NCBI GenBank assembly: GCA_001508855.1
Contig: LGFL01000013.1
Location: forward strand, 1 to 32,533
From: Thermoanaerobacterales bacterium 50_218
GTDB lineage: Bacteria > Bacillota > DSM-12270 > Thermacetogeniales > Thermacetogeniaceae
DNA: 32,533 nucleotides
Direction: 5' to 3'
Shown: positions 225-17,519 of the stretch, one piece after another
How the letters are laid out: the number at the start of each line of letters is the position of its first letter
Numbering within the stretch: the stretch's first letter is position 1
Notes under the pieces: model-generated
What the model was told of the DNA's origin: nothing
Databases searched by the model: none
Seen by the model: only the letters and a program-made list of their open reading frames with translations
Position numbers and translations under genes: made by a program

Positions 225-728
225 CTAAAATGTGACTGCCAGTTGACTGCTATCCCAAAGCTTTTCTCTTAGCTGTAAGGCTACCTGTTCGGAGACAAAA
301 TCTGTGACTTTCCCCCCTAAACTCGCGATTTCCTTGACAACACTGGAGCTGAGGTAAGAATATCTGGGGTGAGCCATCAGAAACAATGTCTCAACATTGG
401 GATTAAGTTTTCTATTCACGAGAGCCATCTGAAACTCATTCTCAAAATCAGATATTGCCCTCAGTCCGCGGATGATCACCTGAGCGTTTTCCCGTTGGAC
501 AAAGTCGCTGAGTAAACCCCGGAAACACTTAATCTCGACATTAGGCAAATGGGCACACTCTTGGGCGATCATCTTCATCCTTTCTTCCATTGAAAATAGA
601 GGTTTCTTATTGGGGTTCACACATACAGCAACGATGACCTTATCGAAGATCAGAGTGGCCCTTTCAATTATGTCCAAATGCCCGTAAGTGATCGGGTCAA
701 AGCTTCCAGGATATACAGCGATTTTCAT
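225..728 (-). CDS. coaD: Phosphopantetheine adenylyltransferase
   Basis: This 167-residue protein catalyses the reversible transfer of AMP from ATP to 4'-phosphopantetheine, the penultimate step of cytosolic coenzyme A synthesis. The nucleotidyltransferase signature is intact: [11 protein letters not shown] at residues 7-17 contains the TxGH motif, RGLR is at 87-90 and the SSSVVKE substrate loop at 127-133. Length is close to the usual ~160, with a short extra C-terminal tail (about residues 158-167). The ATG is preceded by AAAGGAG at spacing 8. It lies 125 bases downstream of the 3-hydroxybutyryl-CoA dehydrogenase gene on the same strand. Supply of CoA would suit the adjacent CoA-thioester pathway, but coaD is an essential housekeeping gene and the adjacency may be incidental. 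Confidence 0.97.
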
Positions 729-853
729 GCAAAAGTCTCCTTTCTCGAACCGTTATTGGTTCAGCAACTACGGTAGCGCGCTCATAGTAAGAACAGGACG
801 CAGCTCTGGATCCCGGAAACTTTTTTCACTAGTTCTGAACTTACAGAAGGGGT

Positions 854-1693
854 TTAGTACTTGTAAAAGCCCTGGTTCGTTTTTCTGCCTAAATATCCTG
901 CCCTAACCATCTTTCTCAACAGAGGACATGGACGATACTTGTCGTCGCCAAACTCCTTATACAGTGTTTCCATGATAGCCAAACACACATCCAGCCCTAT
1001 CAGGTCTGCCAGGGCCAAGGGTCCCATTGGGTGATTTGCACCTAATTTCATGGATTTATCAATGTCTTCAGCAGTAGCAGCGCCTTCCATTAAAAGGTAG
1101 ATAGCCTCATTGATCATGGGAATCAGTATTCTGTTCACAATAAACCCAGGCCATTCATTGACAACAACGGGACTTTTCCCGATTTTCTCCGTAATCTCTT
1201 TGACGTACGTTAAAGTATCATCAGATGTCGCTGGCGTGCGAACTATCTCGACTAATTGCATAACAGGAACAGGATTAAAGAAGTGCATCCCAACTACCTT
1301 CTCCGGACGCTGAGTAACACTTCCTAGTTCACTAACACTTAAACTCGAAGTGTTCGACGACAAGATGGTTGAAGGTTTACAAACAGAGTCAAGCTTTTTG
1401 AAAATCTCTTTTTTGAGATCAAGAACTTCAGGCACGGCCTCTATTACCAAGTCGGCGTCACTACCATCATCTAAGCTGGTAGTCCCTTTAATTTGACTGA
1501 CAATTTCTTCGATAGGAGTCGTTATTTTGCCTTTTTTTGCAAGGCGCTCAAGGTTTTTCCGAATTATATCCATACCTCGAGCGACAAACTTATCCTCGAC
1601 ATCGCAAAGAACCACGCTGTACCCAGCTTGAGCAAAAACCTGAGCAATACCCGCTCCCATAGTGCCTGCTCCTACGACCATCACCTTGTCCAT
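854..1693 (-). CDS. hbd: 3-hydroxybutyryl-CoA dehydrogenase
   Basis: This 279-residue cytosolic enzyme oxidises (S)-3-hydroxybutyryl-CoA to acetoacetyl-CoA with NAD(P)+. The Rossmann fingerprint GAGTMG is at residues 8-13. The catalytic His and Glu are seen in [17 protein letters not shown] (H137, E149), and PGFIVNR with N187 and the C-terminal [11 protein letters not shown] are family hallmarks. The length matches the short monofunctional HBDH family. It is the last pathway gene of the 4-hydroxybutyrate operon in transcription order, 116 bases downstream of crotonase. That gap contains weak inverted repeats, so expression may be adjusted there. The function is clear; cofactor preference (NADH or NADPH) is not. 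Confidence 0.95.
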
Positions 1694-1734
1694 AAGACAA
1701 ACACTCCTTTTCCTATTTCGTTTCTCTTTTCACA

Positions 1735-1784
1735 TCAGGAAAAACTTGAGAAAATGAACACTTGAACATAGAAAATGTTCCTGA
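1735..1784 (-). repeat. Nested inverted repeats in the crt-hbd gap
   Basis: An outer 7-bp pair (TCAGGAA 1735-1741 with TTCCTGA 1778-1784) surrounds an inner 6-bp hairpin (GAACAT-AGAAA-ATGTTC, 1764-1780). No U-tract follows on the minus strand, so this looks more like an intercistronic mRNA structure than a terminator. The function is unknown. Confidence 0.35.
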
Positions 1785-1809
1785 ATACCGCACTGCTTGT
1801 AAAATGCCG

Positions 1810-2592
1810 CTACTTACCTTGGAAAGAGGGCTTCCTTCTTTCTAGAAAAGCCTTCATTCCTTCCTTTTGATCTAAGCTACTAAAGCACACACCAAACAAA
1901 TTCGCTTCCAACATCAAACCACGCTCCAAATCCATTTCCATCCCATTATTAATCGCTTCTTTTGCGTACCTAAGTGCCAAAGGTGCGTTGCCAACAATGC
2001 GCTTGGCCAGTTCTTTAGCAAAACTTAGTAGTTCATCCTGTTTAACCACATGGTTTACCAAGCCAATCTGGAACGCCGTCTGGGCATCGATAATTTCTCC
2101 TGTGTAAATCAACTCCTTGGCTTTACCGGGTCCAACCAAGCGAACAAGTCGCTGAGTACCACCAAACCCTGGGATAATTCCCAAGCTGACTTCCGGCTGT
2201 CCAAACTTGGCGTTATCTGAAGCCACGCGGATATCACACACCATGGCTAATTCGCAGCCACCACCAAGGGCATAACCATTTACTGCAGCAATAGTAGGCT
2301 TTGGGAAATCTTCAATCATCTTAAAAACGCGCTGACCAAGTAATCCAAATTCTTTCCCTTCGCTTACCGTCATATTCTGCATATAGGCGATGTCGGCTCC
2401 AGCAACAAAAGCTTTATCCCCTGCACCCGTCAGGATCAGCACACGAACCCTCGAGTCAGTTGCTAAATTTTCAATTGCGTCTTCGAGTTCGTGCAGCAGC
2501 TCGGCATTCAATGCATTCAAAACCTGAGGTCGATTAATAGTAATAACAGCCAAGTTTTCTTCCTTGTCCAGCAGAATATTCTTATATGTCAC
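1810..2592 (-). CDS. crt: Crotonyl-CoA hydratase (enoyl-CoA hydratase family)
   Basis: This 260-residue crotonase-fold enzyme hydrates crotonyl-CoA to (S)-3-hydroxybutyryl-CoA. The start is GTG at 2590-2592, because AAGGAGGT (2599-2606) lies 6 bases upstream and the family N-terminus (VTYKNILLDKEENLAVITIN) begins there. A longer frame exists but would overlap the thiolase gene. With this start, the oxyanion-hole motifs AFVAGADIA and GYALGGGCELA are visible, with catalytic Glu114 and Glu134 spaced 20 residues apart as in classical crotonases. It lies 47 bases downstream of thiolase in the 4-hydroxybutyrate operon and acts on the product of the AbfD dehydratase. Confidence 0.95.
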   Translation of the reverse strand: MTYKNILLDKEENLAVITINRPQVLNALNAELLHELEDAIENLATDSRVRVLILTGAGDKAFVAGADIAYMQNMTVSEGKEFGLLGQRVFKMIEDFPKPTIAAVNGYALGGGCELAMVCDIRVASDNAKFGQPEVSLGIIPGFGGTQRLVRLVGPGKAKELIYTGEIIDAQTAFQIGLVNHVVKQDELLSFAKELAKRIVGNAPLALRYAKEAINNGMEMDLERGLMLEANLFGVCFSSLDQKEGMKAFLERRKPSFQGK

Positions 2593-2639
2593 TACTGCAC
2601 CTCCTTCGGGACAGCAAAAACTTAAAGCACCAGATTCAA

Positions 2640-3839
2640 TTAGCAACAACGTTCCACAACCATTGCAATTCCTTGACCACCTCCAATGCACAAGGTGGCC
2701 AGACCTCGGTTCGCCCCTCTCCGCTTCATTTCGTAAAGCAAAGTAACCAGGATGCGGGCTCCTGAGGCTCCGATTGGATGCCCAAGGGCTATAGCTCCTC
2801 CATTCACGTTCACTTTATCCATAACCTTGTCGAAGCCCAACTCGCGCGCTACAGCAAGTGACTGGGCAGCAAAAGCCTCATTTGCTTCGATAAGATCGAT
2901 GTCCTCAAGAGTTAAGCCAGCCAATTGAAGAGCTTTCTTGGTAGCAGGTACAGGGCCGATACCCATGATTGCCGGATCCACACCAGCAGAAGCATAACTC
3001 ACGATCCTGGCAAGCGGTTGAATCCCCAAAGCAAGCGCCTTTTTCTCCGACATCACGACCACAGCCGCGGCTCCATCATTGATTCCTGAAGCATTCCCCG
3101 CGGTAACCGTACCCTCACTTTTGAAAGCAGGAGGCAGTTTGGCCATTTTCTCAAGTGTTGTATCACGCGGATGCTCGTCAGTGTCGAAGATTACCGTCTC
3201 TTTCTTGGTTTTAATCTCTACAGGGACAATTTCTTCTTTAAACTTGCCTTCTGCGATCGCCTTTGCTGCCAGGGTTTGGCTGCGGAAGGCGAACTTGTCT
3301 TGCTCCTCACGACTAATGTTCCATCTCTCGGCTACATTTTCCGCAGTGATCCCCATATGGTAATCATTAAAAGCATCCCAGAGTCCGTCCTTGATCATCA
3401 TGTCTACCAAAACACCGTTGTTCATCCGGTACCCAAAACGAGCTTTTTCCAGCAAAAAGGGAGCAGTTGACATGCTTTCTGTGCCACCGGCCACGATGAT
3501 ATCTCCATCCCCGGCTTTAATAATCTGCGCCGCGAGGCTGACTGCACGCAACCCTGATCCACACACTTTGTTGATGGTCATACTCGGTACTTCGATGGGG
3601 AGACCAGCTTTAACTGCGGCTTGGCGGGCAACGTTCTGACCTTGACCTCCCTGCAATACACATCCGAATATTACCTCATCAACATCTTCACTCTTAATAT
3701 TGGCCCGGTTTAAAGCTTCCCTTATGACCAAAGCCGCCAAGTCTACTGCTGAAACATCCTTCAGACTGCGCCCAAAAGATCCAATCGGTGTGCGACACGC
3801 ACTTACAATAACCGCGCTACCATTGTGTTCCATAAGCAA
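2640..3839 (-). CDS. thlA: Acetyl-CoA C-acetyltransferase (thiolase)
   Basis: This 399-residue thiolase cleaves acetoacetyl-CoA with CoA to two acetyl-CoA, or condenses them in reverse. The nucleophilic Cys is in NKVCGSG (C93), with the catalytic His in ALGHPIG (H354) and the second Cys in CIGGGQG (C384). TTG at 3837-3839 is 6 bases from GGAGG and is kept as the start; an ATG two codons later (3833) is 12 bases away and is the alternative. It sits between the permease and crotonase in the operon. A 16-bp perfect inverted repeat separates it from the permease gene. Biosynthetic and degradative thiolases cannot be told apart by sequence; the context suggests degradation. Confidence 0.95.
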
Positions 3840-3878
3840 TTGCTACCTCCCATTCCAAAATTTTTGGTAGATTATCAA

Positions 3879-3919
3879 GGTAAAGAAGTAAGGAAATTTG
3901 TTCTCCTTACTTCTTTACC
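3879..3919 (-). other. 16-bp perfect inverted repeat (intercistronic hairpin)
   Basis: GGTAAAGAAGTAAGGA (3879-3894) and its exact reverse complement (3904-3919) enclose a 9-base loop between the permease stop and the thiolase ribosome site. The stem would be very stable in RNA. On the minus strand it is followed by TTGATAATC rather than a U-tract, so a canonical terminator is unlikely. It could be an RNA processing or stabilising element, a partial attenuator, or a protein-binding palindrome. Confidence 0.7.
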
Positions 3920-3950
3920 TGAGGTTGACTAAAACATTTGTTGGCTTCTG

Positions 3951-5342
3951 TTATGCAGCTTCCTCGCTTACCTGGCTAGCCCATAAGGGGCCTGCAGTGA
4001 CGTCGCCGCGGAAGAAGTTCTTACCGTAAACCACCAGACAGGCAAGGATGCCTACCGCAAACGCCCACGCCGCACCCTTTACTACGAGGACACCACCGAT
4101 TACACCCGCGAGCCCAAGATCGACCAAACTCCTTGCTTCACGTACACCCACATATACTGAGACAAAACCTTGAATTATCATTGTCAGCGACAATGCCGCG
4201 GCAAGGACCGGTTTGGTCAAAGTTACCAGGGGGGCCAGCCAATAACAGGTGAAAGTTCCGAAGCGGAAGCTTGCCACTCCGCCAATGATGGAGTCCATCT
4301 CCTTGCGTCCTTTTTTCCACCGCTCATATATAACCACCGTCATAGCCGCCCATATCGGGCCACACATCGAAATATCCGGGCCTAGGATTGACATGATAAA
4401 GTTTCTCAGACCGACAACCAGGTGGGCGCGGTCAGGATTGTAGTCGACCGGTTCGTCAGGACGGTAGGGGTCGGCATCCCGAATAATGCCCTGGCACTGA
4501 ACCGCATCTCCGAAGATTACAATATAGGTTGCAAGGACCATCGGTATCGCTTTGAGATACATATCAAACGACGGCCACCCTAATGTGCCCCAGGGAACCC
4601 AATCTCGCCACAAGACCCCAAAAGCGGGCTTTGAGAATCCCCACTGGATGTCAAACGAGGCTTCCCCTACAACCGCTGCAACAATAATCGCCATCACAAT
4701 CGCGGGAAGAATGCCCAGATTGGAAATATATCCGAGCACTTTGTTCTTCTTGGCATACTCCTGAAACCCGCGGTTGTACATCATGTACAGGGCAACGAGA
4801 GCGCACACAGAAACTGTGATCGGCATGGCTTCAAACTTGCCGCCTTGGTCAAACACCAACTTAATTGCCGCAATACCGGCACCAAGGATGACACCCGCTT
4901 TGATTGACCTAGGGATGGCGTTGATAACCTTGACCGCTAGTCCAGTGCTTCCCAGGAAGAAGCACCAAATACCAAGGAGCATCTCAAAAGCGATTAGTGC
5001 ATGCATACGTGTCGGTCCTTCGGGAAAACTACTTACGTAAGCGACAAGAAGAGGAATCGCAGGAGTTACCCACCCCGGAACAACCGGGTCACCGAGCCAT
5101 GAGTGCCAGAGGTACAGAAAACCATTCAAGATGACGATGGCAAGGGCGACCTCAAAAGGCATTCCCAAGACATCTTGCAGTACTGGAATAATTGAGAGAC
5201 AGACAGCTCCCATCAGCAGCCCTTGGATGTAATCGGGCCACTCCCAGCGGTAGTGAATCCCCGGAAAGCGGATCTTAAACTTCCACAGAGGGATATACGG
5301 GGGTTCCTGACCGTAAGGTCTTTTATTTTCCCAATTAGTCAC
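3951..5342 (-). CDS. Predicted multi-spanning permease (UraA/SulP-like), possible carboxylate importer
   Basis: This 463-residue integral membrane protein has about 12-14 hydrophobic segments. The N-terminal helix pair, the early GDPVVPGWVTPAIPLLVAY segment and the overall layout resemble the NCS2/SLC26 (UraA fold) transporters, but no family is recognised with certainty. The soluble loop in the middle (GDAVQCQGIIRDADPYRPDE) is distinctive. The GTG at 5340-5342 is chosen because AAAGGGTGG lies about 6 bases upstream. A TTG eight codons earlier (5366) has no ribosome site. It lies between the CoA-transferase and thiolase genes, and the context suggests uptake of 4-hydroxybutyrate or a related short-chain acid. 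That substrate is inference only. Confidence 0.6.
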   Translation of the reverse strand: MTNWENKRPYGQEPPYIPLWKFKIRFPGIHYRWEWPDYIQGLLMGAVCLSIIPVLQDVLGMPFEVALAIVILNGFLYLWHSWLGDPVVPGWVTPAIPLLVAYVSSFPEGPTRMHALIAFEMLLGIWCFFLGSTGLAVKVINAIPRSIKAGVILGAGIAAIKLVFDQGGKFEAMPITVSVCALVALYMMYNRGFQEYAKKNKVLGYISNLGILPAIVMAIIVAAVVGEASFDIQWGFSKPAFGVLWRDWVPWGTLGWPSFDMYLKAIPMVLATYIVIFGDAVQCQGIIRDADPYRPDEPVDYNPDRAHLVVGLRNFIMSILGPDISMCGPIWAAMTVVIYERWKKGRKEMDSIIGGVASFRFGTFTCYWLAPLVTLTKPVLAAALSLTMIIQGFVSVYVGVREARSLVDLGLAGVIGGVLVVKGAAWAFAVGILACLVVYGKNFFRGDVTAGPLWASQVSEEAA

Positions 5343-5378
5343 AATATCCCACCCTTTCTTTGCCAAATATTAACTATT

Positions 5379-6674
5379 TTAAATCCCATAAATCTCCTTA
5401 AACTCTTGCCAGATCTGGTCTCTAAACTGTGGCGCTGCTATGTTTAACAAAGCCTCTGCACGCTGCCTAATCGTTTTGCCTTTCAAATGGGCAATTCCAT
5501 ATTCTGTGACTACGTAGTCCACATCATTACGGGAAGTTGTAACTGCTTGTCCTCTGTCGAGAGCAGCAACTATCCTTGACACTTTCCCTTTAGCTGCCGT
5601 AGCTGGCATTGCAATAATGCTTCTTCCTCCCTTGGACCTCGCTGCTCCTCTCACAAAATCAACCTGTCCACCTACTCCGCTGAACTGCCTAGTACCAAGC
5701 ATATCTGCGGCTACTTGTCCCATCAGGTCTACTGCTATTGCTGAGTTGATCGAAACCATGTTGTCGTTTTGCGCAATCACGAAAGGATCATTTGTAAAGT
5801 CGACTGTATAGAATTCGACCATCGGGTTGCCATCCAGCCACTCATAAAATTTCCGAGTTCCCATGGCAAAAGTTATCACGATTTTTCCTGGTCGGAAGGT
5901 CTTCCGGCGACATGTGATTACTCCTTCTTCAACTAAATGCATTACCCCGTCAGAGATCATTTCCGAATGTATACCCAGGTCTTTTTTATCTTTTAGAAAA
6001 CTAAGTACAGCGTCTGGAATGGCTCCGATCCCTAACTGCAAGCAGTCACCATCTCGAATCAAACTGGCCACATGATTACCAATCGCTCTTTCTACTTCAG
6101 TGATTTTCGGTGGGGCAAGTTCAATTAGCGGCACTTCTACTGGAACAAAGTAGTCAATGTCAGTTACGTGGACTACTGAATCTCCCCCAGTTCGCGGCAT
6201 ATTGGGATTGACTTCGGCAATAACAGTTTTGGCGCTGAATACGGCCTGCTTAGTGTAATCAACCGAAATTCCTAAGCTGACAAAACCATGTTTGTCCGGT
6301 GGTGTTGTAGTAACCATGGCCACATCAACTGGTAGTACGCCGTCACGGAACAACCCTGGTATTTCGTGGAAAAAGACAGGAGTGTAATCTGCTCGACCTT
6401 CGTTCACAGCTTCGCGGCTGGTGCTGCCCACGAACAAGGAATTGTGGCGGAATGATGAAGCGTATTCCTTCTGGCAGTAGCGCGCTTTTCCCATTGCTAC
6501 CATGTGAACTATTTCGACATTTTCCAATTCGTCAGCTCGGTCCACAAGAGCCTCGGTAATCACCTGTGGCTCACCACATGCATGAGCCAATACAACCCGA
6601 TCTCCTGATTTGACAACTTTGACCGCTTCGTCTGCAGATACGGTCCTGGACTGGTAATACTCTTTCCAGTTCAT
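5379..6674 (-). CDS. abfT: 4-hydroxybutyrate CoA-transferase (acetyl-CoA hydrolase/transferase family)
   Basis: This 431-residue enzyme is of the Cat1/Cat2/AbfT class I CoA-transferase family. It would move CoA from acetyl-CoA to 4-hydroxybutyrate, giving 4-hydroxybutyryl-CoA and acetate. The catalytic glutamate that forms the glutamyl-CoA thioester is seen in GIHSEMISDG (E238), preceded by QLGIGAIPDAV. The C-terminal domain has GVGGQVDFVRGA, typical of the butyrate/4-hydroxybutyrate subgroup, and VVTEYGIAHLKGKT. ATG is preceded by GGAG at spacing 4. It sits 24 bases downstream of the CGGC gene and 36 before the permease. The family also uses butyrate and propionate; the 4-hydroxybutyrate assignment rests on linkage to abfD. 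Confidence 0.88.
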   Translation of the reverse strand: MNWKEYYQSRTVSADEAVKVVKSGDRVVLAHACGEPQVITEALVDRADELENVEIVHMVAMGKARYCQKEYASSFRHNSLFVGSTSREAVNEGRADYTPVFFHEIPGLFRDGVLPVDVAMVTTTPPDKHGFVSLGISVDYTKQAVFSAKTVIAEVNPNMPRTGGDSVVHVTDIDYFVPVEVPLIELAPPKITEVERAIGNHVASLIRDGDCLQLGIGAIPDAVLSFLKDKKDLGIHSEMISDGVMHLVEEGVITCRRKTFRPGKIVITFAMGTRKFYEWLDGNPMVEFYTVDFTNDPFVIAQNDNMVSINSAIAVDLMGQVAADMLGTRQFSGVGGQVDFVRGAARSKGGRSIIAMPATAAKGKVSRIVAALDRGQAVTTSRNDVDYVVTEYGIAHLKGKTIRQRAEALLNIAAPQFRDQIWQEFKEIYGI

Positions 6675-6698
6675 CTCTCTCCGCGACTCCTCTCCTCT

Positions 6699-7022
6699 TT
6701 ACTTGGTTGCTTTCTCCCTAGCTGACTTAATTAATTGCCCAAGCATAACTGGAATTTCAGACTGGGGGACCTCCAAATAATCCAGCAAACCGGCACTTAC
6801 AACATGCCAATTCTCAGTACCCTTTCTCACCTCCGTTCTGTCCGCACAACAAGCAGGACAACCGCAGATAATCAAGCCAACGTCAAAAGTTCCTTCCTCC
6901 TCATACACAACTTCTATGTCTTCCTGAAGCTCTTGATTTAAGTAAGATAAAAGGTCACGCAGGAACTTGGTGCGATCATATCCACAATTACAGCCACCAC
7001 AGTACTTAACTCGAATCTTCAT
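6699..7022 (-). CDS. Small cysteine-rich CGGC protein, function unknown
   Basis: This 107-residue soluble protein has two cysteine clusters: KYCGGCNCGYDR at residues 6-17 (three Cys) and CGCPACCADR from residue 53 (four Cys). Between them is a predicted alpha/beta segment with an acidic stretch (EDIEVVYEEEGTFD). The pattern suggests a metal or Fe-S site, or a redox dithiol, but I do not recognise a characterised family. The ATG overlaps the stop of the NifU-like gene (ATGA at 7019-7022), so translation is coupled. Its place between an Fe-S scaffold protein and the CoA-transferase in an operon headed by an Fe-S dehydratase suggests a part in maturing or protecting AbfD. That is inference from context. 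Confidence 0.75.
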   Translation of the reverse strand: MKIRVKYCGGCNCGYDRTKFLRDLLSYLNQELQEDIEVVYEEEGTFDVGLIICGCPACCADRTEVRKGTENWHVVSAGLLDYLEVPQSEIPVMLGQLIKSAREKATK

Positions 7023-7318
7023 CGCTCAAGCAGTCCTCCTGTTCCTCCCTTTAGAATGTCAACTACAGTATCCAGAAGCTCACGAGAAATCGTGTTGTTC
7101 ACCACAACATTTCTGATGCCTGGCACTTTCTCTTTCAACGTTTCAGCTACAATTGTTTCCAGCGTGACCTGAGAAGCCGGGCACCCACTGCAGGCACCAG
7201 TAAGTTCTACAATTACGTCTTTTTCTGGGGTAACTTCTACTACTTCGAGACCACCACCGTGGCTGCGCAGGTACGGGAGAACCTCTTTTTCTAAAACCTC
7301 TTTAACCTTGTCCAGCAC
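7019..7318 (-). CDS. nfu: NifU-like C-terminal domain Fe-S scaffold protein
   Basis: This 99-residue stand-alone Nfu domain binds a [4Fe-4S] cluster through the CxxC motif seen in LTGACSGCPASQVTLETIV. The chosen start is GTG (7316-7318), since GGGGGAG lies about 7 bases upstream and the family N-terminus (MLDKVKEVLEKEVLPYLRSHGGG) begins there. A TTG nine codons earlier is possible but lacks a ribosome site. It lies directly downstream of abfD (33 bases) and overlaps the CGGC gene by 4 bases. Family knowledge: Nfu proteins deliver clusters to target enzymes. Since AbfD carries a catalytic [4Fe-4S] cluster, a dedicated cluster supplier is a reasonable reading. Confidence 0.88.
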   Translation of the reverse strand: MLDKVKEVLEKEVLPYLRSHGGGLEVVEVTPEKDVIVELTGACSGCPASQVTLETIVAETLKEKVPGIRNVVVNNTISRELLDTVVDILKGGTGGLLER

Positions 7319-7351
7319 TCGGTTTCTCCCCCGTCCAGGTGTCAAAGCAAT

Positions 7352-8821
7352 TTACCTTCCAGGCAGCAGATCATCGGGATCGATGCCACAGAGGCGGCGA
7401 GCAAGAGCTTTTTTGGCCTCCAGGTTGGCCAACCTCTGGATCATAATGCGCTGCGCCTGCGGAGAACCAGCCCCATGCAATGATTCCGTCAGATATCCCA
7501 CTGCTACAGCGCCGAGGGTCATTGCTTCAATGAGGCGCAGCATACGCTGCCTGTGTTCAGTCGGATACTTCGCATCCCCCTGCATTAGTTTTTTGCACCA
7601 CTCGCCAATCTCGGGTGAATTGAAGTCAGCATCAGAAGGCATGGTAACCAACAGACCACCAGCAATATCCTGAGCCAATCTAGCAATCTCATAGGGGAAT
7701 CTGGTAACATTCTGCTTGCAGACATTGGCCAGCATAATGTCGATCAGGTAGTTGCCAGCCGCAGTTTTCCTTCCTTCTGCAGAACAAGCAATACCACAGG
7801 AGTACAGAGTTTCGTTCAAATGAATCATCTCGGTCAGTTTATCCCTGACGTGGGAAGCTTTTGCTACTCCGTTGTATTCGGCAATAGCTGCAGTAGCCCC
7901 AATCAAAACATCACCATTTCCTACCTTGCACCCACCGTAGGACTGCCTGTGGTAACCTGCAAACCGCTCAACCAACATACCAGCAAACTCAGTTTCTCCG
8001 CACATAAAAACACGGTCCCAGGGCACGAAAGTATTGTTAAAAATCACAATGGCTTCCTGACCACCGTAGTTGATATTCCCAACATCCACCTTGCTGTCTT
8101 CTAACTTGCGGGTATCGCAGGACTGGCGCCCGTAGATATAAATAAGACTAGGATCATCAGCTGGAACTGCAAAGCACACCGCGTAGTCCTTGTCCTCGGG
8201 CTTCATCGAAATGGTAGGCATCACTAGGATCTCATGCGAGTTGAGTATGCCTGTCTGGTGCATTTTGGCACCACGAACAACGATGCCATCTTCTCTTTTC
8301 TCAACTACCCGTACGTACAAATCAGGATCAGCCTGGGCAGAAGGGCCGAGCGCTCGATTACCTTTAGGGTCTGTCATCGCTCCATCAACTGTCCAGTCTT
8401 TCTCTTCCCACTCCAGCACATATTTTTTAAACCTTTCGTGGTAGTTGGTCCCATACTTCTTGTCGATTTCGTAGGTTGTGCTCCAAACCGCATTCAGTGC
8501 ATCAAGACCCACACAGCGCTGAAAGCATGCCCCGGTCATCTGTCCAACCAAACGCAGCATTTTGACCTTCTTGATCAGATCTTCTGTGCTTTGGTGTAAG
8601 TGGGTAAAACGATTAATTTTGCGTCCCGTCAAAGCAGAAGTTGCAGTCATTATATCTTCGTACTCGGGAAGTTCTGCCAGTTTGTAGGTCATAGCACAGC
8701 AGTTGATTGATGGACGGATCATCGGGTGGTCTACGGGGTTTTCCACTTTTTCCCCCATCAGGTAGATATTGCGGGGTCTCAATTCACGCAGACTTTGGAT
8801 ATACTCTTCTGCTGTCATCAT
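7352..8821 (-). CDS. abfD: 4-hydroxybutyryl-CoA dehydratase / vinylacetyl-CoA delta-isomerase
   Basis: This 489-residue flavin and [4Fe-4S] enzyme dehydrates 4-hydroxybutyryl-CoA to crotonyl-CoA by a ketyl-radical mechanism and also isomerises vinylacetyl-CoA. The cluster ligands known from the Clostridium aminobutyricum enzyme can be read: C99 and C103 in GACFQRC, and H291 and C298 in GYHRQSYGGC, with the same His-x6-Cys spacing. The substrate and flavin-site region AKMHQTGILNSHEILVMPT is conserved. Two consecutive ATGs (8821 and 8818) follow GGAGG. It is the first gene of the operon, about 57 bases from a sigma-54 promoter. Related 4-hydroxyphenylacetate hydroxylases lack these ligands, so the assignment is firm. 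Confidence 0.95.
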   Translation of the reverse strand: MMTAEEYIQSLRELRPRNIYLMGEKVENPVDHPMIRPSINCCAMTYKLAELPEYEDIMTATSALTGRKINRFTHLHQSTEDLIKKVKMLRLVGQMTGACFQRCVGLDALNAVWSTTYEIDKKYGTNYHERFKKYVLEWEEKDWTVDGAMTDPKGNRALGPSAQADPDLYVRVVEKREDGIVVRGAKMHQTGILNSHEILVMPTISMKPEDKDYAVCFAVPADDPSLIYIYGRQSCDTRKLEDSKVDVGNINYGGQEAIVIFNNTFVPWDRVFMCGETEFAGMLVERFAGYHRQSYGGCKVGNGDVLIGATAAIAEYNGVAKASHVRDKLTEMIHLNETLYSCGIACSAEGRKTAAGNYLIDIMLANVCKQNVTRFPYEIARLAQDIAGGLLVTMPSDADFNSPEIGEWCKKLMQGDAKYPTEHRQRMLRLIEAMTLGAVAVGYLTESLHGAGSPQAQRIMIQRLANLEAKKALARRLCGIDPDDLLPGR

Positions 8822-8877
8822 TTGAACATCGCCTCCACAGACATCTCTTGGTTAAACTTTTCACTTGTTTTCTTCTA

Positions 8878-8892
8878 GCAACTTCCGTGCCA
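8878..8892 (-). promoter_or_regulatory. Sigma-54 promoter of the 4-hydroxybutyrate operon
   Basis: The minus-strand sequence TGGCACGGAAGTTGC matches the sigma-54 consensus TGGCACG-N4-TTGC without mismatch, with the obligatory GG and GC exactly ten bases apart. The expected transcription start is near 8866, leaving a leader of about 45 bases before the abfD ATG. A sigma-54 activator gene is divergently encoded, which supports a true promoter. Confidence 0.9.
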
Positions 8893-9038
8893 TTTCTAAA
8901 TCTCAAGAAATGCTGCTATCACTTCTCCGGCTTTTCAATTTTGCCTGTTATTTCGGAGTTTTCTGGCTCAAAAATTTTCTGTGTTTGGCATGAAGATTGG
9001 GCAAACGTATCAAAGGCAAATGCACTTGGGCATTACTG

Positions 9039-9052
9039 ATGCATTTCTGCAT
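9039..9052. promoter_or_regulatory. Palindrome ATGCA-N4-TGCAT, upstream copy A
   Basis: The sequence ATGCATTTCTGCAT is a perfect dyad with a 4-base spacer, about 160 bases upstream of the sigma-54 -12 element. It is a candidate upstream activator site for the Fis-type domain of the divergently encoded regulator. No binding evidence exists beyond position, symmetry and duplication. Confidence 0.55.
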
Positions 9053-9131
9053 GCAGAGCTGGCCCATTGTCACCAGCTACATGTGCAAGTTTTCGCTAAT
9101 ACACCCTGGCAAATGCGCAAATGCATCGTTA

Positions 9132-9145
9132 ATGCATTCCTGCAT
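9132..9145. promoter_or_regulatory. Palindrome ATGCA-N4-TGCAT, upstream copy B
   Basis: The sequence ATGCATTCCTGCAT repeats the dyad of copy A exactly 93 bases away, with only one spacer base changed. A further ATGCAT lies at 9121-9126. Conservation of both arms while flanking bases diverge is what a protein-binding site would show. Confidence 0.55.
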
Positions 9146-9173
9146 ACCAGGTTGGACCATTGGCGCCAGCTAC

Positions 9174-9533
9174 TGACTGCCTTTGCAACCGTTAGAATTA
9201 ATACCAAAGTGTTTCTTAGTCAATAGGAAACAGGGAGCATATCTCTGCCCCTCACTAGGCCTTCAAAAGAGGAGACTGGCATGGTATTTGAAAAAGTACA
9301 AAACGGGAAGCAATAAGAAATGGGGGAATTTCAGCAAGGAAAAAAGGTAATAGTTTGAGGCTGAGTAGCAGAAAACAAAAGAGGGAATCATTTTTTATAC
9401 CAAGCGAGGAAAGGAAGTTGAAGGCGATCCTAACGAAAATAAAGGATTTCCTCATCATTACAGAGAAGGTTATAAGTGTAGTTTCCCGGGGGCCACACTT
9501 GCACTAAAAATCGAGAACAAGGAGCTGAAAAAG
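9174..9533. other. Leader region of the activator gene, no gene seen
   Basis: This A- and purine-rich stretch separates the tandem repeats from the activator start. A half-match to a plus-strand sigma-54 promoter (TGGCATG-GTAT-TTGA, 9277-9291) has GA in place of the essential GC. No convincing sigma-A promoter was found. An open frame on the minus strand (9255-9458) encodes a low-complexity hydrophobic peptide without a ribosome site and is not called. Confidence 0.4.
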
Positions 9534-11648
9534 ATGCGGGTCAGAGACGTGATGACAAAGAACAACGTATACGCCTCTATTCACGATACCCTCGACAAGG
9601 TAGCGAAAATTTTTCATGACCACCAAGTTGATTGTGTGCCGGTTTTAGATGATGAAGGAAAACTGCAGGGAGTTATAGACAAAAACCACTTCATAAAGGC
9701 AATAACCACCTGTAGACATCTTTCCACCCCTATCTCCGATGTTATGGCCAGGAATATGCCTGCCGTAACCCCAGATGACGATCTGACACAAGTGAGTAAA
9801 ATCAAATTCGAATCTGAATGCATCCCAGTTCTTGAGAAGGGAAAAGTTGTCGGTATTCTCAAAAGAACAGACCTTATAAACGCCATCAGTAAAAATAAAA
9901 ACGGACAATATACGAGGGCTCTGCTAGATTCTCTCCTCAACCCAATCATAGCTATCGATACTGAAGAAATTGTCAGAGCATGCAATATGGCTGCTGCGCG
10001 CTTATTTGGAAAGGAACCATGCGAAATTATAGGCATGCCGCTAAAATCCATACTAAAAGAATCCGGGCTACCCAACGTTTTATCAGCCGGCAGACCAGAA
10101 CCAGGTCAGAAGATTACGATCGGCAATCGAACCTTCGTTTCGAACAGGACTCCCATTTATGTCGACGGCAAAATCGTTGGTGCGGTGGCTGTGTTGCAGG
10201 ACATATCAGAACTTGAGGCCATATCGAAGGAACTATCCTATACAAAGGAACTCTCCAGAGAGCTGGATGCTATTATCGAGTCTTCTTTTGATGGCATTTT
10301 TGTTACTGATGGTTCGGGAAAGGTTTTGAAAGTCAACCAAGCCTACGAAAGGATCACCGGGATCAAAAAGGAAGAGGTTCTGGGAAGAACTATGCAGGAA
10401 TTAGTGGAACAGGGGTTTTACGACAGATCAGTTACTCTAGAGGTGCTCAAAACTGGTAAAGCGCAAACCATAGTTCAAGAAGTCAAAACCGGGAAAACTA
10501 TTCTAGTTACAGGAAACCCAATTTATGACACAAACGGAAACATATTTCGGGTGGTCACCAATGTCCGCGATATTACAGAACTTAATCGGCTACAGCAGGA
10601 AGTCAAAAGAATGCAGGAATTACAACAACATTACGAAGAAGTGATCAACAAACTTCGTTTGCAAGTAGCACATGGTGAAACCGTAGTAGTAAAATCTAAA
10701 AAAATGAACGAAGTTATGGAACTGGCTGCTCGCCTGGCGCAGGTAGACTCGACCGTCCTCATTTATGGAGAATCCGGGGTGGGCAAGGAACTAATCGCTA
10801 ATTTTATTCATGAAAACAGTCCGCGGAAAAAAGCTCCCTTCATAAAAATTAACTGTGCGGCCATTCCGGAAAACTTGCTGGAATCGGAATTGTTCGGCTA
10901 CGAAGAAGGGGCCTTCACAGGGGCCAGAAAAGGAGGAAAAATAGGGGTCTTTGAAATTGCCAACAAAGGCACGCTTTTCCTGGACGAAATTGGTGAACTT
11001 CCCCTGAGCTTACAAGCGAAGCTCCTCCGGGTTCTCCAGGAAAAAGAAATTACGAAGGTAGGAGGAGTAAAACCCATAAAGATCGATGTAAGAATAATCG
11101 CGGCCACCAACCGCAATCTCCACGAGATGGTCGAACAAAACCAGTTTCGAAGAGATCTTTTTTACCGCCTCAACGTGCTCTCGATTTATGTTCCGCCGCT
11201 GCGGGAAAGGCGAGAAGATATTCCCCCATTAGCGTTCCACTTCCTTGAAAAAGTAAACAAGGAATACGGGTTTAATAAGAGACTCGACCCTCAAGTTATC
11301 AAGCTTTTAGTACAATACGACTGGCCCGGTAATGTAAGAGAACTTTCCAATGCAATTGAACGATTAGTTGTAATGTCATCGGGCGAGGTTATCACGTATG
11401 AAGACGCGAAAACCTATCTATTCAACTGGAAGGCAAATAATGGCAGAGAATTAGAACATTATAGATGGCAACCTCTGAAAAAAGCTGTTGAGGAATTCGA
11501 AAAAAGTTTACTTACTCAAGCATTCGAAACATTTAAGACCACGTACAAAGTTGCAGAAGTGCTTGGAGTCAACCAGTCTACTATTGTTCGGAAGGCAATG
11601 CGCTACGGAATACCAATAGGAAAACAAACCAGTAGGAAAACGAAATAG
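9534..11648 (+). CDS. Sigma-54-dependent transcriptional activator (CBS-CBS-PAS-PAS-AAA+-Fis)
   Basis: This 704-residue regulator belongs to the NtrC/RocR-type enhancer-binding proteins. Domains in order: a CBS pair (about 1-118), PAS (about 125-225), PAS (about 240-350), a coiled-coil linker (350-385), an AAA+ module (388-620) and a Fis-type helix-turn-helix (about 660-697). Walker A GESGVGKE (412-419), the sigma-54 contact motif GAFTGA (459-464), Walker B GTLFLDE (479-485) and arginine-finger region RRDLFYR (539-545) are all intact, so it should remodel sigma-54 polymerase. The start ATG follows AAGGAG at spacing 9. It is divergent from abfD, whose promoter is sigma-54 type, so activation of the 4-hydroxybutyrate operon is likely. 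CBS pairs often bind adenine nucleotides and PAS domains bind small ligands; the inducer is unknown. Confidence 0.93.
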   Translation: MRVRDVMTKNNVYASIHDTLDKVAKIFHDHQVDCVPVLDDEGKLQGVIDKNHFIKAITTCRHLSTPISDVMARNMPAVTPDDDLTQVSKIKFESECIPVLEKGKVVGILKRTDLINAISKNKNGQYTRALLDSLLNPIIAIDTEEIVRACNMAAARLFGKEPCEIIGMPLKSILKESGLPNVLSAGRPEPGQKITIGNRTFVSNRTPIYVDGKIVGAVAVLQDISELEAISKELSYTKELSRELDAIIESSFDGIFVTDGSGKVLKVNQAYERITGIKKEEVLGRTMQELVEQGFYDRSVTLEVLKTGKAQTIVQEVKTGKTILVTGNPIYDTNGNIFRVVTNVRDITELNRLQQEVKRMQELQQHYEEVINKLRLQVAHGETVVVKSKKMNEVMELAARLAQVDSTVLIYGESGVGKELIANFIHENSPRKKAPFIKINCAAIPENLLESELFGYEEGAFTGARKGGKIGVFEIANKGTLFLDEIGELPLSLQAKLLRVLQEKEITKVGGVKPIKIDVRIIAATNRNLHEMVEQNQFRRDLFYRLNVLSIYVPPLRERREDIPPLAFHFLEKVNKEYGFNKRLDPQVIKLLVQYDWPGNVRELSNAIERLVVMSSGEVITYEDAKTYLFNWKANNGRELEHYRWQPLKKAVEEFEKSLLTQAFETFKTTYKVAEVLGVNQSTIVRKAMRYGIPIGKQTSRKTK

Positions 11649-12569: not shown

Positions 12570-12606
12570 GCTAGCCATTCTTTAGTGGCTAGCTGTTCTT
12601 TTTTAT
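12570..12606 (+). terminator. Intrinsic terminator after the SIMPL gene
   Basis: A perfect 8-bp stem, GCTAGCCA (12570-12577) with TGGCTAGC (12586-12593), encloses an 8-base loop and is followed by TGTTCTTTTTTA. It ends the plus-strand transcription unit just before the convergent MFS gene, whose stop codon lies inside the T-tract. Confidence 0.9.
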
Positions 12607-13874
12607 CTTCCTGGAGACCTTCGGGAAAGGAAAAGGGCGATCAGGAGGAGGCACAAAAAGAGGACAGAGCCGCTGGCAAAGAAAGGAGATGCTGGGTGAA
12701 GGTGTTCGTAGAGAAGACCACCTAGCGGAGAGCCGACGATAAAGCCCAGGCTCTGCATGGTGCTGATCCCGGCAAAAGCCGCTCCCACACGCTGGGGAGA
12801 TACAACCACACTGGTGAGGGCAAACCAGGCCGGTGTTCCGGCAACATAAGCGAGAGCAAGGAGAGCGACAACAACAGCCAGTTCCCAGAGTTCGCCGAGA
12901 AAAGGAACCACAACCAAGGCCGCGCCTCCCAGCAGATAGGCCAACTGAATCACCTGAACCTTCCCAATCCTGTCAGTGAGATGCCCGACAGGAAGGGCAA
13001 AAATTGCCACGAGCACCGCGGGGATCAGGAGAGCTGTGCCGATCTCCCCCTGGTGGAACCCCAATTGGCGGTTCACATAAAGGATAAACGTGCTGGAAAG
13101 AAGACCGAGCCCAAACTGCTGGAAAAGGGAAATAAAAAGCATCACCCAATAGGAACCTGAAAAACCTTCAAAAAAACAGGAAAAACGCTTCCCCACCTCC
13201 GCCCTACCGGTCTCAAAAAGCTCTGGCCTCAGGGCTTTCTTCAGTTCGTTCTCGGGAAAACTTGCTGTGGCAAAGAAAACCACACCGAACACAACTGCGG
13301 CAAGGAGGAGGAAAAAAGCCACCTCAAAAGCCATGACACTGGACCGAGCAAAGTGATTGACATAAGCACCAAAAGCAGGGCCAAGGCCCAGGGCAACGAG
13401 ATAGCTCATATTCAAAACCGTGAGGGCGGTTGCCCTTTCTTCGTGCTTCACCTGTTCAGCTATCAGTGCCGAGAGCATCGGCCAGAAGGCAGCCACACCA
13501 AGCCCGTTGAGGACTTCCAGCAAAACAAAAAACACCGGAGAACGGGCGTAGATAAACCCCAGGGGCACAAAGCTGGTGAGCAACAACCCCAGGAGAATCA
13601 CCGGTTGCTTTCCCCAGTGGTCGCTTAACACCCCAAAAGGTGTCTTGGCAATGATTTCAGCAGTGGCGTAAACCGAAAAAAGAAAGCCAATTACTCCAGC
13701 GTGAAAGCCGATCTCGTTTTTCAAGTATAGGGGGAGGGTCGGGATGATCACTGCCAGGGCAATGGTGCTCAGAAAAGAAAGAAAAGCTATCCCCAAAAGA
13801 AAAGGGTAGCTCTGGAAGATCCGGAAATAGCCTCCTAATGGCTTCCTGATTCCATCTCCTGCCATCTTCCTCAC
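12603..13874 (-). CDS. Major facilitator superfamily transporter
   Basis: This 423-residue protein has 12 predicted membrane helices. The MFS signature between helices 2 and 3 (GVLSDHWGKQP) is repeated in the second half (GHLTDRIGKVQ). The overall pattern resembles drug or metabolite efflux permeases of the DHA1/YfcJ type, but no substrate can be assigned. The GTG at 13874 lies 6 bases after the preceding gene's stop, suggesting coupling. An ATG at 13865 is an alternative start, and neither has a strong ribosome site. It is co-oriented with the PRK06851-like gene upstream and probably shares its transcript. Confidence 0.85.
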   Translation of the reverse strand: MRKMAGDGIRKPLGGYFRIFQSYPFLLGIAFLSFLSTIALAVIIPTLPLYLKNEIGFHAGVIGFLFSVYATAEIIAKTPFGVLSDHWGKQPVILLGLLLTSFVPLGFIYARSPVFFVLLEVLNGLGVAAFWPMLSALIAEQVKHEERATALTVLNMSYLVALGLGPAFGAYVNHFARSSVMAFEVAFFLLLAAVVFGVVFFATASFPENELKKALRPELFETGRAEVGKRFSCFFEGFSGSYWVMLFISLFQQFGLGLLSSTFILYVNRQLGFHQGEIGTALLIPAVLVAIFALPVGHLTDRIGKVQVIQLAYLLGGAALVVVPFLGELWELAVVVALLALAYVAGTPAWFALTSVVVSPQRVGAAFAGISTMQSLGFIVGSPLGGLLYEHLHPASPFFASGSVLFLCLLLIALFLSRRSPGR

Positions 13875-13880
13875 CGATCA

Positions 13881-14915
13881 CTACAATAAATCGTTTGCAT
13901 CTGCATCCTGCAGGATTCTGGAGATAAAGTTGTTGACTTCTTTTCCCAAAAAATCGTTCTCCAGGGAAAAACCCTGAAAACCTGACTGCTGAAGCTGAAG
14001 CATTTTCTGGGCCGCCTCAGATAGCAAGCCTCTCACCTTCTCCGGCTCCTTTGGCTTGATTCTTTCTCCATCCGGGTCTGAGGTTGACTTGAAAGCACCC
14101 GAAGTTTCCCAGATGACATCACTGGGGAGCACCTCGACGCCAACCCCAGAAGTGGTGTCGATGAAGGCGATCCTCTCTTCAGGCAAGATGACTACAACCG
14201 GATCCTCAGGGTTGAGGTAAGAGTAGTAAGCCTCAACCTGATAATGACGACTTAAGGCCTCCAGGAGAACCTGGTGCAACAGGAAACAGCCGCTTCCAGG
14301 AACCCCCCGGATCAGGTACCTCCGGCAGCAGCCCCTGCTAAGATTGGAGATGAAGCCAACATCACCCTCAGGAGAAAGGGAAACCGCAAAGTAACGACGC
14401 AGTCTTCGAGGTTTTCGCAAAAACTCCCCAGCCCAGGCAGAAACCTTCCCTGCCAGAAAATGCTGATCGATCAGCTTCCCCTGGTGGAAACAAAAATCCT
14501 TCCACATCGCTGTCGCTTCGTGCAATACTTCCACAACATCTTCGATGAGAGCCTCATCTAGCGGTTCACCTGGCAGAGAAACTGCTGGAAGAAACACTTC
14601 CTCAACAATCTCGATCCCTGGAAACCCCTCGAGATTCTCCAAAGAAAAGACCTCACCGTCAAAGACACCAATGCCTTTCTCCCGAAGCACCAAACCCTCG
14701 AGAGAAATGTGGTCAAAAGGGCTGTGGAAAAACTCCACATCCTGATAACCGCGGTCACATAACCCCAATCCCACCAACCGCAGGAATAAACTCCTTCCTA
14801 GAGAAGTCGCCCCCTGCAGCAGAAAAACTTTCACCAGATCCTGTAGCAGATCATCCAAATAGGACAAAATACCCTCACCTGTGAGCACCCTGACGAAAGT
14901 ATGCTTGCCAGCCAA
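13881..14915 (-). CDS. PRK06851-type NTPase-fold protein with degenerate P-loops
   Basis: This 344-residue protein resembles the Firmicute PRK06851 family, which has two tandem P-loop NTPase domains. Here neither Walker A is canonical: the first reads GATSLGRS (residues 35-42, Lys to Arg) and the second GVPGSGCF (residues 204-211, Lys to Cys and Ser/Thr to Phe). The family's downstream pattern is still visible (VVILPEERIAFIDTTSG). The start TTG (14913-14915) is chosen because GGGAGG lies 7 bases upstream. A longer frame adds a 23-residue Cys-rich leader that looks like translated ribosome site and promoter. Function is unknown, and nucleotide hydrolysis is doubtful. It precedes the MFS gene by 6 bases. 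Confidence 0.7.
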   Translation of the reverse strand: MAGKHTFVRVLTGEGILSYLDDLLQDLVKVFLLQGATSLGRSLFLRLVGLGLCDRGYQDVEFFHSPFDHISLEGLVLREKGIGVFDGEVFSLENLEGFPGIEIVEEVFLPAVSLPGEPLDEALIEDVVEVLHEATAMWKDFCFHQGKLIDQHFLAGKVSAWAGEFLRKPRRLRRYFAVSLSPEGDVGFISNLSRGCCRRYLIRGVPGSGCFLLHQVLLEALSRHYQVEAYYSYLNPEDPVVVILPEERIAFIDTTSGVGVEVLPSDVIWETSGAFKSTSDPDGERIKPKEPEKVRGLLSEAAQKMLQLQQSGFQGFSLENDFLGKEVNNFISRILQDADANDLL

Positions 14916-15011
14916 AAATCCACCTCCCTGGCAACAACAGCAACTATCACTGTTACCTCTACATCCTATTAAAGTGAAGAACAAAGTGTGAATCGCCAGG
15001 GAGAAAAGCCA

Positions 15012-16244
15012 CTACCTGCGGATGCGCTGCCACAACTTCTTTAGCAGGCTCCCGCTCGCGTAATCAACATTTGCCGGATCACCGGGATCAGGCACCGGGA
15101 TCACCCCCAAAGGCTCCCCAGACCTGCGGTAAACCTGCAGCCGCACTAGGTGGGTCTGCCCAGAAACATACTCGAGCTCGAAACTGCTTCCTGCTAAAGC
15201 CAGCACCTGAGCAAGCTCCACCCTTGAGTTGACACTAAAGTGGTCGATGCTGAGGATCACATCCCCAGGGCGCAGCCTAACCCGATCAGCAGGGGAACCC
15301 CTGATCACATCGAGAACCATCACCCCACGACCTGGAGCCACAAACCTGGAAGGCCCTTTGAGTTCTGAATTGCGCCCGATGTAGATGACCGCTTCGTGAC
15401 CGAGGGGAGAAAACAAAGCGGGAAGAACCGCCAGTTGGGGAAAATGGGATGCCACAACCGCCAGCCCCAGGAGAATGAGACTAAAGACAGAAAGGTTGAG
15501 AGCTGAGTGCCTGGTCTTCTCGCGGGGAAGACGGGTCAAGGCCACCTCTCCGTACCCTAAAGCAGCAACAACAGGAAAGATCCCATAAATCACTTCCGCA
15601 GAACCCCATTCTCCCCAGGGTCTGATCAGCGGCCACCAATCCGGCATCCTGATGATCTCTCCCCCAGCTTCAGGAGGCAAGTTGACAAAAGTTGCCATCA
15701 CAGCCAAAGGAATCGGCCAGAATTTCTGGAGATTGAACCCTCCAACAACCTGCCCGAAGTAGTTGCGGACATAAACAGGTAAGGGATCAATATGACCACT
15801 GATAAGGATGAGCACGCTTTCCACAAGGTGCAAAATGGCCACCAGACCCATCAGGGAGGGAATATCAACCTTCGGGTGACCAGTGATCAGGGAAAACAGG
15901 GCGAGAATTCCGCCCGCATAGGAAAAACACAAAAATCTGGGGTTGATCAGCATCAAAAAAATCGCCAGCAACCAGAGGTAACCGATCCCCAAACCACTGA
16001 TCGATACCCCAAAAAAGACCATCAGGAGACTCCCCACCAGCCCACCGATGATTCCGTAGCCGATAGCAGCAGCCACAACCGGGAAAACCGGGTGACGCAC
16101 TCCAAAAAGCGCTTCTTTGCTCTTCTGCATCTTCTGGTACTGCAGCCAGATGAGGATAACCACCAACCAGAAAAAAGGAGAAGTCAAAACCCCAAGAAAA
16201 GACCTGCCGACAAGTGGCAAAACTTTAGCCCAAGGGAACCCCAT
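15012..16244 (-). CDS. PDZ-domain polytopic membrane protein, MinJ-like
   Basis: This 410-residue protein has about eight membrane helices in its first 280 residues and a PDZ domain near the C-terminus (about 295-375: GVMVLDVIRGSPADRVRLRP, then GDVILSIDH). The architecture and the neighbours match Bacillus MinJ (YvjD), encoded beside ftsEX and ctpB, which bridges DivIVA and MinD in division-site placement. The homology is suggested by layout rather than a clear signature, so it could also be a general PDZ membrane adaptor. The ATG (16242-16244) is 9 bases from TAGGAGG. That ribosome site overlaps the stop codon of the protease gene, so translation is probably coupled. Confidence 0.75.
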   Translation of the reverse strand: MGFPWAKVLPLVGRSFLGVLTSPFFWLVVILIWLQYQKMQKSKEALFGVRHPVFPVVAAAIGYGIIGGLVGSLLMVFFGVSISGLGIGYLWLLAIFLMLINPRFLCFSYAGGILALFSLITGHPKVDIPSLMGLVAILHLVESVLILISGHIDPLPVYVRNYFGQVVGGFNLQKFWPIPLAVMATFVNLPPEAGGEIIRMPDWWPLIRPWGEWGSAEVIYGIFPVVAALGYGEVALTRLPREKTRHSALNLSVFSLILLGLAVVASHFPQLAVLPALFSPLGHEAVIYIGRNSELKGPSRFVAPGRGVMVLDVIRGSPADRVRLRPGDVILSIDHFSVNSRVELAQVLALAGSSFELEYVSGQTHLVRLQVYRRSGEPLGVIPVPDPGDPANVDYASGSLLKKLWQRIRR

Positions 16245-16257
16245 TGTCAAATGCCTC

Positions 16258-17427
16258 CTAGGCAGCCGCTCTTCGAGAGCCCTGAAGGATCTCCTCGAGG
16301 ACCTCTACAGCCTTCTCCAGTTGTATGTCCTCGTCTTCTCCAGCAGGTTGTTCGACATAAACATCAGGCTCGATTCCCTTTCCGTGGATATCCCTCCCCT
16401 TCGGGGTCAAATACTTGTCAGTTGTCAGCTTAACTCCGAGATCGTCACCAATGGTGAACACCGTCTGTACAAGACCTTTACCAAAGGTGCGGGTTCCCAC
16501 GAGGATCCCGCTCCCGGAATCCTTGATCGCCCCGGCAACAATTTCCGAAGCACTGGCACTCCCTTCATTGATCAGCACCACAAGGGGAACAGTGACCTGC
16601 TTGCTGTGGGAAGACTTCCAGACCTCCTCACTACCTCCCCGGTGCACGATCCGCACAACCGGACCCTCGGGAATAAAGCAGCCGGCAAGCTCCACAGCAG
16701 CGTGGAGATCGCCCCCGGGATTGTCCCGCAGGTCAAGGATAAGACCGCGATAACCCTCTTCTTCGAGGGAGGCAAGTGCTTCCTGCAACTGAAGGATGGT
16801 GCTCGTTCTGTTGAAGTGGAGCACCCTGATGTAGCCAAGCCCTGGGTGACCTGAAAGCATTCTCCAGGTTACTGAAGGAATGGTGATCTCGTCTCTGACG
16901 ATCTGAAAGTCGACATACCTGTTTTCATCCTGACGCCAGACCTTAAAAGAAACCTTTGTTCCCGGTTCCCCGCGCAACAGTTGGGCAGCCTCGATCAAAG
17001 TAATCCTTTCTGTATTTTTTCCCTCGATCTCCACGATAATGTCTCCACTCTTAACTCCGGCGCGGTCAGCAGGCGTCCCCGGCAATGGGGCCACAACAAC
17101 CAGCCTCTTCTCCTCATCGAGGTCGATCTCTACCCCGATTCCCCCAAATGAGCCCTCAATCTGGAGGTTCAGCTCCCGATAAAGGTCTTCATCGAGATAA
17201 ACAGAATAAGGATCTCCGAGGGCATCCACCATCCCTCGAACCGCCCCCTCGATCAGGGTGGCGGTACTCACTGGCTTCAGGTACTCCCTTTTAATCAGAA
17301 CAAAGGTTTTGATGAAGGTGAGGATGTGGTTATCCCGCGCCCAAAGAAAAAAAAGCCAAAAACCGCTTCCCAATACCAGGAGGATAAGGAACCCTGCAGC
17401 AACTAAGGCCAAGCGCTGTTTCAGCAT
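16258..17427 (-). CDS. ctpB: S41-family carboxy-terminal processing protease
   Basis: This 389-residue protease is anchored by one N-terminal helix (about residues 8-30) and acts outside the membrane. Domain order: linker, PDZ (about 90-180, with GSFGGIGVEI and GTPADRAGVKSGDIIVEI), and the S41 catalytic domain. The Ser-Lys dyad is visible: Ser292 in NEGSASASEI and Lys317 in TFGKG, 25 residues apart as in Bacillus CtpB. RDNPGGD is also conserved. The ATG (17425-17427) is 5 bases after GGGAGG; a GTG two codons earlier overlaps it. It follows the M23 hydrolase and precedes the MinJ-like gene, as in other Firmicutes. It probably processes envelope or division proteins; substrates are unknown. Confidence 0.92.
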   Translation of the reverse strand: MLKQRLALVAAGFLILLVLGSGFWLFFLWARDNHILTFIKTFVLIKREYLKPVSTATLIEGAVRGMVDALGDPYSVYLDEDLYRELNLQIEGSFGGIGVEIDLDEEKRLVVVAPLPGTPADRAGVKSGDIIVEIEGKNTERITLIEAAQLLRGEPGTKVSFKVWRQDENRYVDFQIVRDEITIPSVTWRMLSGHPGLGYIRVLHFNRTSTILQLQEALASLEEEGYRGLILDLRDNPGGDLHAAVELAGCFIPEGPVVRIVHRGGSEEVWKSSHSKQVTVPLVVLINEGSASASEIVAGAIKDSGSGILVGTRTFGKGLVQTVFTIGDDLGVKLTTDKYLTPKGRDIHGKGIEPDVYVEQPAGEDEDIQLEKAVEVLEEILQGSRRAAA

Positions 17428-17519
17428 CTCCACCTCCCAAAAAGGCCATCTCCCTTACTATATGTCAAATTTTGCCCAAATATTAATTTAAGCAAACATC
17501 GCCCTCAAAAATGATCCAG

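Follow-up and report, generated by a model that had tools for sequence, protein, structure and literature searches.

A predicted sigma-54 promoter and putative paired enhancer palindromes upstream of a 4-hydroxybutyrate (abfD) operon in Thermoanaerobacterales bacterium 50_218

The abfD operon of Thermoanaerobacterales bacterium 50_218, located in a 32,533-nucleotide stretch of DNA (contig LGFL01000013.1; the whole stretch analysed is hereafter the window), is very probably controlled by an ordinary sigma-54/enhancer switch for 4-hydroxybutyrate use (probability of about 0.93, as judged from sequence). A regulator and target of this kind had been predicted before in Clostridium, as XanR/abfD; what is added here is the lineage, the layout of the enhancer, a gene block that was probably acquired and the lack of a detectable acyl-CoA dehydrogenase. 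The promoter element and the adjoining activator gene are:

8877–8892, minus strand: sigma-54 −24/−12 promoter element TGGCACGGAAGTTGCT, an exact consensus match
9534–11648, plus strand: sigma-54 activator with two CBS domains, two PAS domains, an AAA+ domain with GAFTGA and a C-terminal HTH (HTH_50), from protein motifs and profile matches

On the minus strand, the −24 GG (8891/8890) and the −12 GC (8879/8878) are separated by 10 bases (GG-N10-GC), and the element departs from the consensus TGGCAYRNNNNTTGCW at no position. It is the sole exact match on either strand of the 32.5-kb window, for which shuffled sequences gave an expectation of 0.02. The element lies 57 nt ahead of the abfD ATG, and the predicted transcription start is A8866, with a leader of 45 nt that carries GGAGG ahead of the ATGATG at 8821 (the abfD start). 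The preliminary description of this DNA had placed a consensus sigma-54 promoter here, and its coordinates, GG-N10-GC spacing and distance to abfD were all correct. A simple scan, which is crude and can overlook promoters, found no sigma-A-like promoter in the intergenic region that separates abfD from the activator gene. Another sigma-54-like site lies before the activator gene at 9277 (plus strand) but was rejected as weak, since GA replaces its −12 GC.

That the promoter stands opposite a sigma-54 activator gene, as had also been described, was borne out by the divergent 9534–11648 gene, which is intact and encodes GAFTGA. GESGVGKE, GAFTGA and GTLFLDEIGE are all present in its product, PF00158 and HTH_50 were matched, and the protein has the AAA+ domain with Walker motifs, the GAFTGA loop and the HTH of a bEBP. 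In a tree of activators it pairs with that of Thermosyntropha lipolytica (support 99/93), to which it aligns over the full length, CBS part included. The alignments of most other matched activators start only past the CBS part; the activator at locus L013, a likely Clostridium counterpart, is 47% identical over residues 233–691. Assignment of the window protein as PrdR was rejected, its score of 549.6 bits lying below the 795-bit NCBIfam cut-off.

The genome (1.77 Mb in 121 contigs, 94% complete) holds one intact copy of rpoN, with its RpoN box. Throughout its 1.77 Mb the exact sigma-54 pattern occurs 10 times, as against twice for the reversed control, a frequency of about one site per 177 kb. 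Each of the four clear sigma-54 activators in the genome is nevertheless located within about 2 kb of an exact promoter site, which at this frequency is not explained by chance. The other three are on contigs C44, C67 and C85, each adjoined by its exact site; the C44 neighbour is an MttB-type methyltransferase gene and that at C67 a gene for a pyruvate formate lyase-like glycyl-radical enzyme.

The preliminary description had proposed a search for the same element before abfD in relatives, and such a search was carried out. Among 80 named abfD loci, a strong sigma-54 site (no more than 400 nt from abfD and scoring 18 or higher out of 20.5) was found in eight, every one of which also has a gene for a sigma-54 activator. 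Where the fetched stretch of a named locus showed no activator, no site came up to this score. Furthermore, 82 of 399 genomes sampled across the phylum have an AbfD match, and about half of the 29 loci of the best AbfD matches carry a perfect or near-perfect site. Combined, a strong site within 250 nt upstream of abfD was found in 22 of 109 loci, the background being 1.2% of the remaining 250-nt stretches in those loci; the computed p-value for this count is inflated by relatedness of the loci, yet the sites are spread over many families. L124 (score 18.5) is probably a false positive among the 22, its site seeming to lie within an upstream coding region, and one locus (L112) was omitted from the count as its upstream stretch is identical to that of L004. 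The activator gene is upstream of abfD and in the same direction in T. lipolytica and several other relatives, and divergent in the window and in L119.

The 712-bp intergenic region between abfD and the activator gene contains a 66-bp direct repeat, its two copies being 73% identical and 93 bp apart, that carries four 14-bp palindromes of the form ATGCAnnnnTGCAT:

9015–9080: 66-bp direct repeat copy 1, with palindromes 1 and 2
9108–9173: 66-bp direct repeat copy 2, with palindromes 3 and 4
9020–9033, minus strand: putative enhancer palindrome 1 (9/10), centre at −160 from the predicted start
9039–9052, minus strand: putative enhancer palindrome 2 (10/10), 19 bp from palindrome 1, centre at −179
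9113–9126, minus strand: putative enhancer palindrome 3 (9/10), centre at −253
9132–9145, minus strand: putative enhancer palindrome 4 (10/10), 19 bp from palindrome 3, centre at −272

The palindromes thus form two pairs, 19 bp start to start within each pair. Two such pairs compare with a shuffle mean of 0.002 (maximum of 1 in 500 shuffles), with the reservation that both sit in one repeat and are not independent of each other. Their centres are 160–273 bp upstream of the predicted start and about 136–248 bp upstream of the −24 element, in line with the upstream sites of clostridial sigma-54 activators, given as 100–250 bp from the promoter (PMC6615313). A search of the genome with the paired pattern (that of 9020–9052) found no other occurrence.

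Two other abfD genes, that of T. lipolytica (ATGTTTATATGCATCACCGATGTTTTTTTGCAT) and that of the Bacillota locus L082 (ATGCAATATTGCATCGGAGTTGCATTTCTGCAT), likewise have a pair with the 19-bp spacing upstream. In G020, a pair lies downstream of an activator gene 52% identical to that of the window, and the neighbouring genes, one of them for an NADH-oxidoreductase of the 51-kDa type, have their own sigma-54 site in front. This locus (L102, on G020 C43) encodes an activator with a ferredoxin-like N-terminal part, and its pair and sigma-54 site precede hydrogenase-type genes; by its sequence it would represent the same enhancer type reused for a different operon. The strict TGCA-N4-TGCA core was found in 5 of the 22 sigma-54-type abfD loci versus 2 of the 87 loci lacking a strong promoter, which lends only partial support to the idea that an enhancer of this form precedes every sigma-54-type abfD gene. 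The bases outside the core vary (A..T, T..A and G..C), which suggests one putative enhancer family whose outer base has changed between lineages. Upstream of abfD at L114, L111, L119 and L013 there are related palindromes in which the outer bases differ (GTGCAnnnnTGCAC, TTGCAnnnnTGCAA).

Downstream of the promoter, the cluster consists of:

7352–8821, minus strand: abfD, 4-hydroxybutyryl-CoA dehydratase/vinylacetyl-CoA isomerase (735 bits to PDB 1u8v)
7019–7345, minus strand: NifU-like iron-sulphur protein (PF01106)
6699–7022, minus strand: small Cys-rich protein (hyp), without a match in Pfam or NCBIfam; relatives also have it after abfD
5379–6674, minus strand: 4-hydroxybutyrate CoA-transferase (best matches 3eh7 and 3gk7)
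3951–5366, minus strand: permease of the xanthine/uracil permease family (weak match, PF00860)
3835–3955, minus strand: strong hairpin between the permease gene and thl (−37.1 kcal/mol, z −4.9, by folding of 121 nt)
2640–3839, minus strand: thl, acetyl-CoA C-acetyltransferase (family profiles), a probable downstream part
1810–2691, minus strand: crt, short-chain enoyl-CoA hydratase (family profiles), its true start probably inside the ORF
854–1693, minus strand: hbd, 3-hydroxybutyryl-CoA dehydrogenase (family profiles)

The abfD product is full length, and its alignment to 1u8v shows identical CFQRC and HRQSYGGCK motifs, which we take to hold the cluster ligands and catalytic residues of AbfD. 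The permease, presumed to serve substrate uptake, also follows the CoA-transferase at L004 and L013. The small Cys-rich protein (CGGCNCGYDR...CGCPACC) is a recurrent member of abfD operons, encoded between nifU and the gene for the CoA-transferase, and perhaps aids the insertion of the iron-sulphur cluster into AbfD.

The genes from abfD through nifU, hyp and the CoA-transferase to the permease are tightly packed, and gaps of about 110–125 bp precede thl, hbd and coaD, the last of which comes after hbd. Because of the hairpin and these gaps, the extension of the sigma-54 transcript across thl-crt-hbd is uncertain. The earlier proposal that the whole pathway is switched by sigma-54 is thus to be divided. 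Sigma-54 control of the abfD operon has strong support: the element is exact, an activator gene adjoins it, the putative enhancer palindromes are conserved, rpoN is intact and the element recurs before abfD in many Bacillota. The other part, coverage of thl-crt-hbd, is less certain. The hairpin may be a point of RNA processing or of partial termination or attenuation, and possibly sets the ratio of the operon's two halves.

It is possible, though it is not the reading we favour, that the promoter drives only abfD to the permease, with thl-crt-hbd transcribed from separate promoters, their own or constitutive ones, and the hairpin ending or trimming the first transcript. The stability of this hairpin, the finding that T. 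lipolytica (L004, 11540–11590) has a hairpin in the corresponding position, though its sequence differs, the gap of about 110 bp between the permease gene and thl, and the occurrence of abfD-nifU-hyp-ach blocks that lack thl-crt-hbd in the fetched stretches of several relatives all speak for such a division; the stem of the window hairpin is, however, not followed by a T run, a good sigma-A-like promoter was not found just before thl, and in T. lipolytica thl has been kept directly after the permease gene.

Far less probable is that the promoter, while of the sigma-54 type, depends on a different activator encoded in the genome, with the divergent gene regulating something else. There are indeed three other clear activators to choose from, yet a separate consensus site lies close to each of these, in two cases beside a readable target (MttB on C44, the glycyl-radical enzyme on C67), and the palindrome pairs adjoin the activator gene of the window as well as its 52%-identical counterpart in G020. 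Least credible of all is a chance match in front of an operon transcribed by sigma-A: sigma-54 elements are short, but the low number of exact matches expected in the window, the adjoining activator gene, the conservation of the element upstream of abfD in many lineages and the lack of a sigma-A-like site in the simple scan of the intergenic region all count against it.

Under the favoured sigma-54/enhancer switch, sigma-54 RNA polymerase would sit at the −24/−12 element (8892–8877), read here from sequence, and the divergent activator would bind the two palindrome pairs 160–273 bp upstream, as their conservation and exclusivity suggest. Its CBS/PAS sensor region would detect some ligand or energy state, upon which ATP hydrolysis by the AAA+/GAFTGA domain, the established mechanism of the family, would open the promoter. 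Transcription from near A8866 would then extend over abfD-nifU-hyp-CoA transferase-permease as a minimum and run on, wholly or in part, into thl-crt-hbd. With the resulting proteins the cell would take up 4-hydroxybutyrate, activate it, convert it to crotonyl-CoA by dehydration and oxidize this to two acetyl-CoA.

Among the 20 genomes of the family that were searched, this one alone has abfD, which is absent from the 19 others (G001–G019). Moreover, the G+C content of the block (window 225–11648) is 42–49%, compared with 54% for the 12600–32500 part of the window. The absence of abfD in the family and the lower G+C of the block fit horizontal acquisition with the regulator; by these features, operon and regulator were probably acquired together. 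No acyl-CoA dehydrogenase was detected in the 94%-complete genome, so the conversion of crotonyl-CoA to butyrate by that route is hardly possible. Together with the fact that the block also includes crt, hbd and thl, this points to a predicted oxidation of 4-hydroxybutyrate to acetyl-CoA rather than to butyrate synthesis. A more elaborate picture, which we regard as speculative and rather unlikely as a whole, is that of a self-contained block, possessed by none of the 19 other species sampled in the family, in which the CBS domains would read the cell's energy or nucleotide state and gate 4-hydroxybutyrate oxidation, not butyrate synthesis, to when it pays, the paired 19-bp palindromes being a distinct enhancer architecture.

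The preliminary description knew of no account of such control for abfD operons, a statement now superseded by two sources. In the Table 1 of Nie et al. (2019; PMC6615313), the activator XanR is listed for Clostridium with the targets “abfD-nifU-hyp-ach-golB” under butyrate/butanol synthesis, and a 2025 survey (PMC12316311) describes COG2368, which includes 4-hydroxybutyryl-CoA dehydratase, as sigma-54-regulated primarily in Clostridia. In the available portions of both, sigma-54 control of abfD is predicted rather than tested. A literature search found no further paper joining abfD or XanR with sigma-54, and abfD goes unmentioned in a study of rpoN in C. difficile.

The present system resembles the XanR regulon (PMC6615313) in the target order abfD-nifU-hyp-ach, the sigma-54 promoter, a dedicated activator site and a similar upstream distance. 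One feature of the XanR group, abfD-nifU-hyp-ach preceded by a sigma-54 site, was thereby found here. The system differs in that its activator carries two CBS domains and is encoded divergently, the cluster continues with the permease, thl, crt and hbd, and the label “butyrate/butanol synthesis” does not suit a genome in which acyl-CoA dehydrogenase was not found. The portion of the COG2368 survey at hand (PMC12316311) places the same enzyme group under a predicted sigma-54 promoter, at survey level and with no operon or enhancer detail. PrdR, the proline reductase activator, is the best NCBIfam match of the window activator and shares its PAS-AAA-HTH arrangement, whereas the window activator has CBS domains, a different target and a different site type, PrdR sites being TGT/ACA inverted repeats according to PMC6615313.

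The analysis extends a computational prediction from Clostridium to many more Bacillota lineages and adds a specific enhancer motif that is testable in a cultured relative, T. lipolytica. It also indicates that sigma-54 activators accompany 4-hydroxybutyrate metabolism even where acyl-CoA dehydrogenase was not found and butyrate is hardly the product.

Elsewhere in the genome, two operons that lack a neighbouring activator gene are also preceded by an exact sigma-54 site, one for a 2-oxoacid:ferredoxin oxidoreductase (C60, L107) and one of NuoE/NuoF-like, hydrogenase type (C121, L110); these could be further sigma-54 targets or chance matches. The exact sites on C25 and C113 are identical in sequence to each other.
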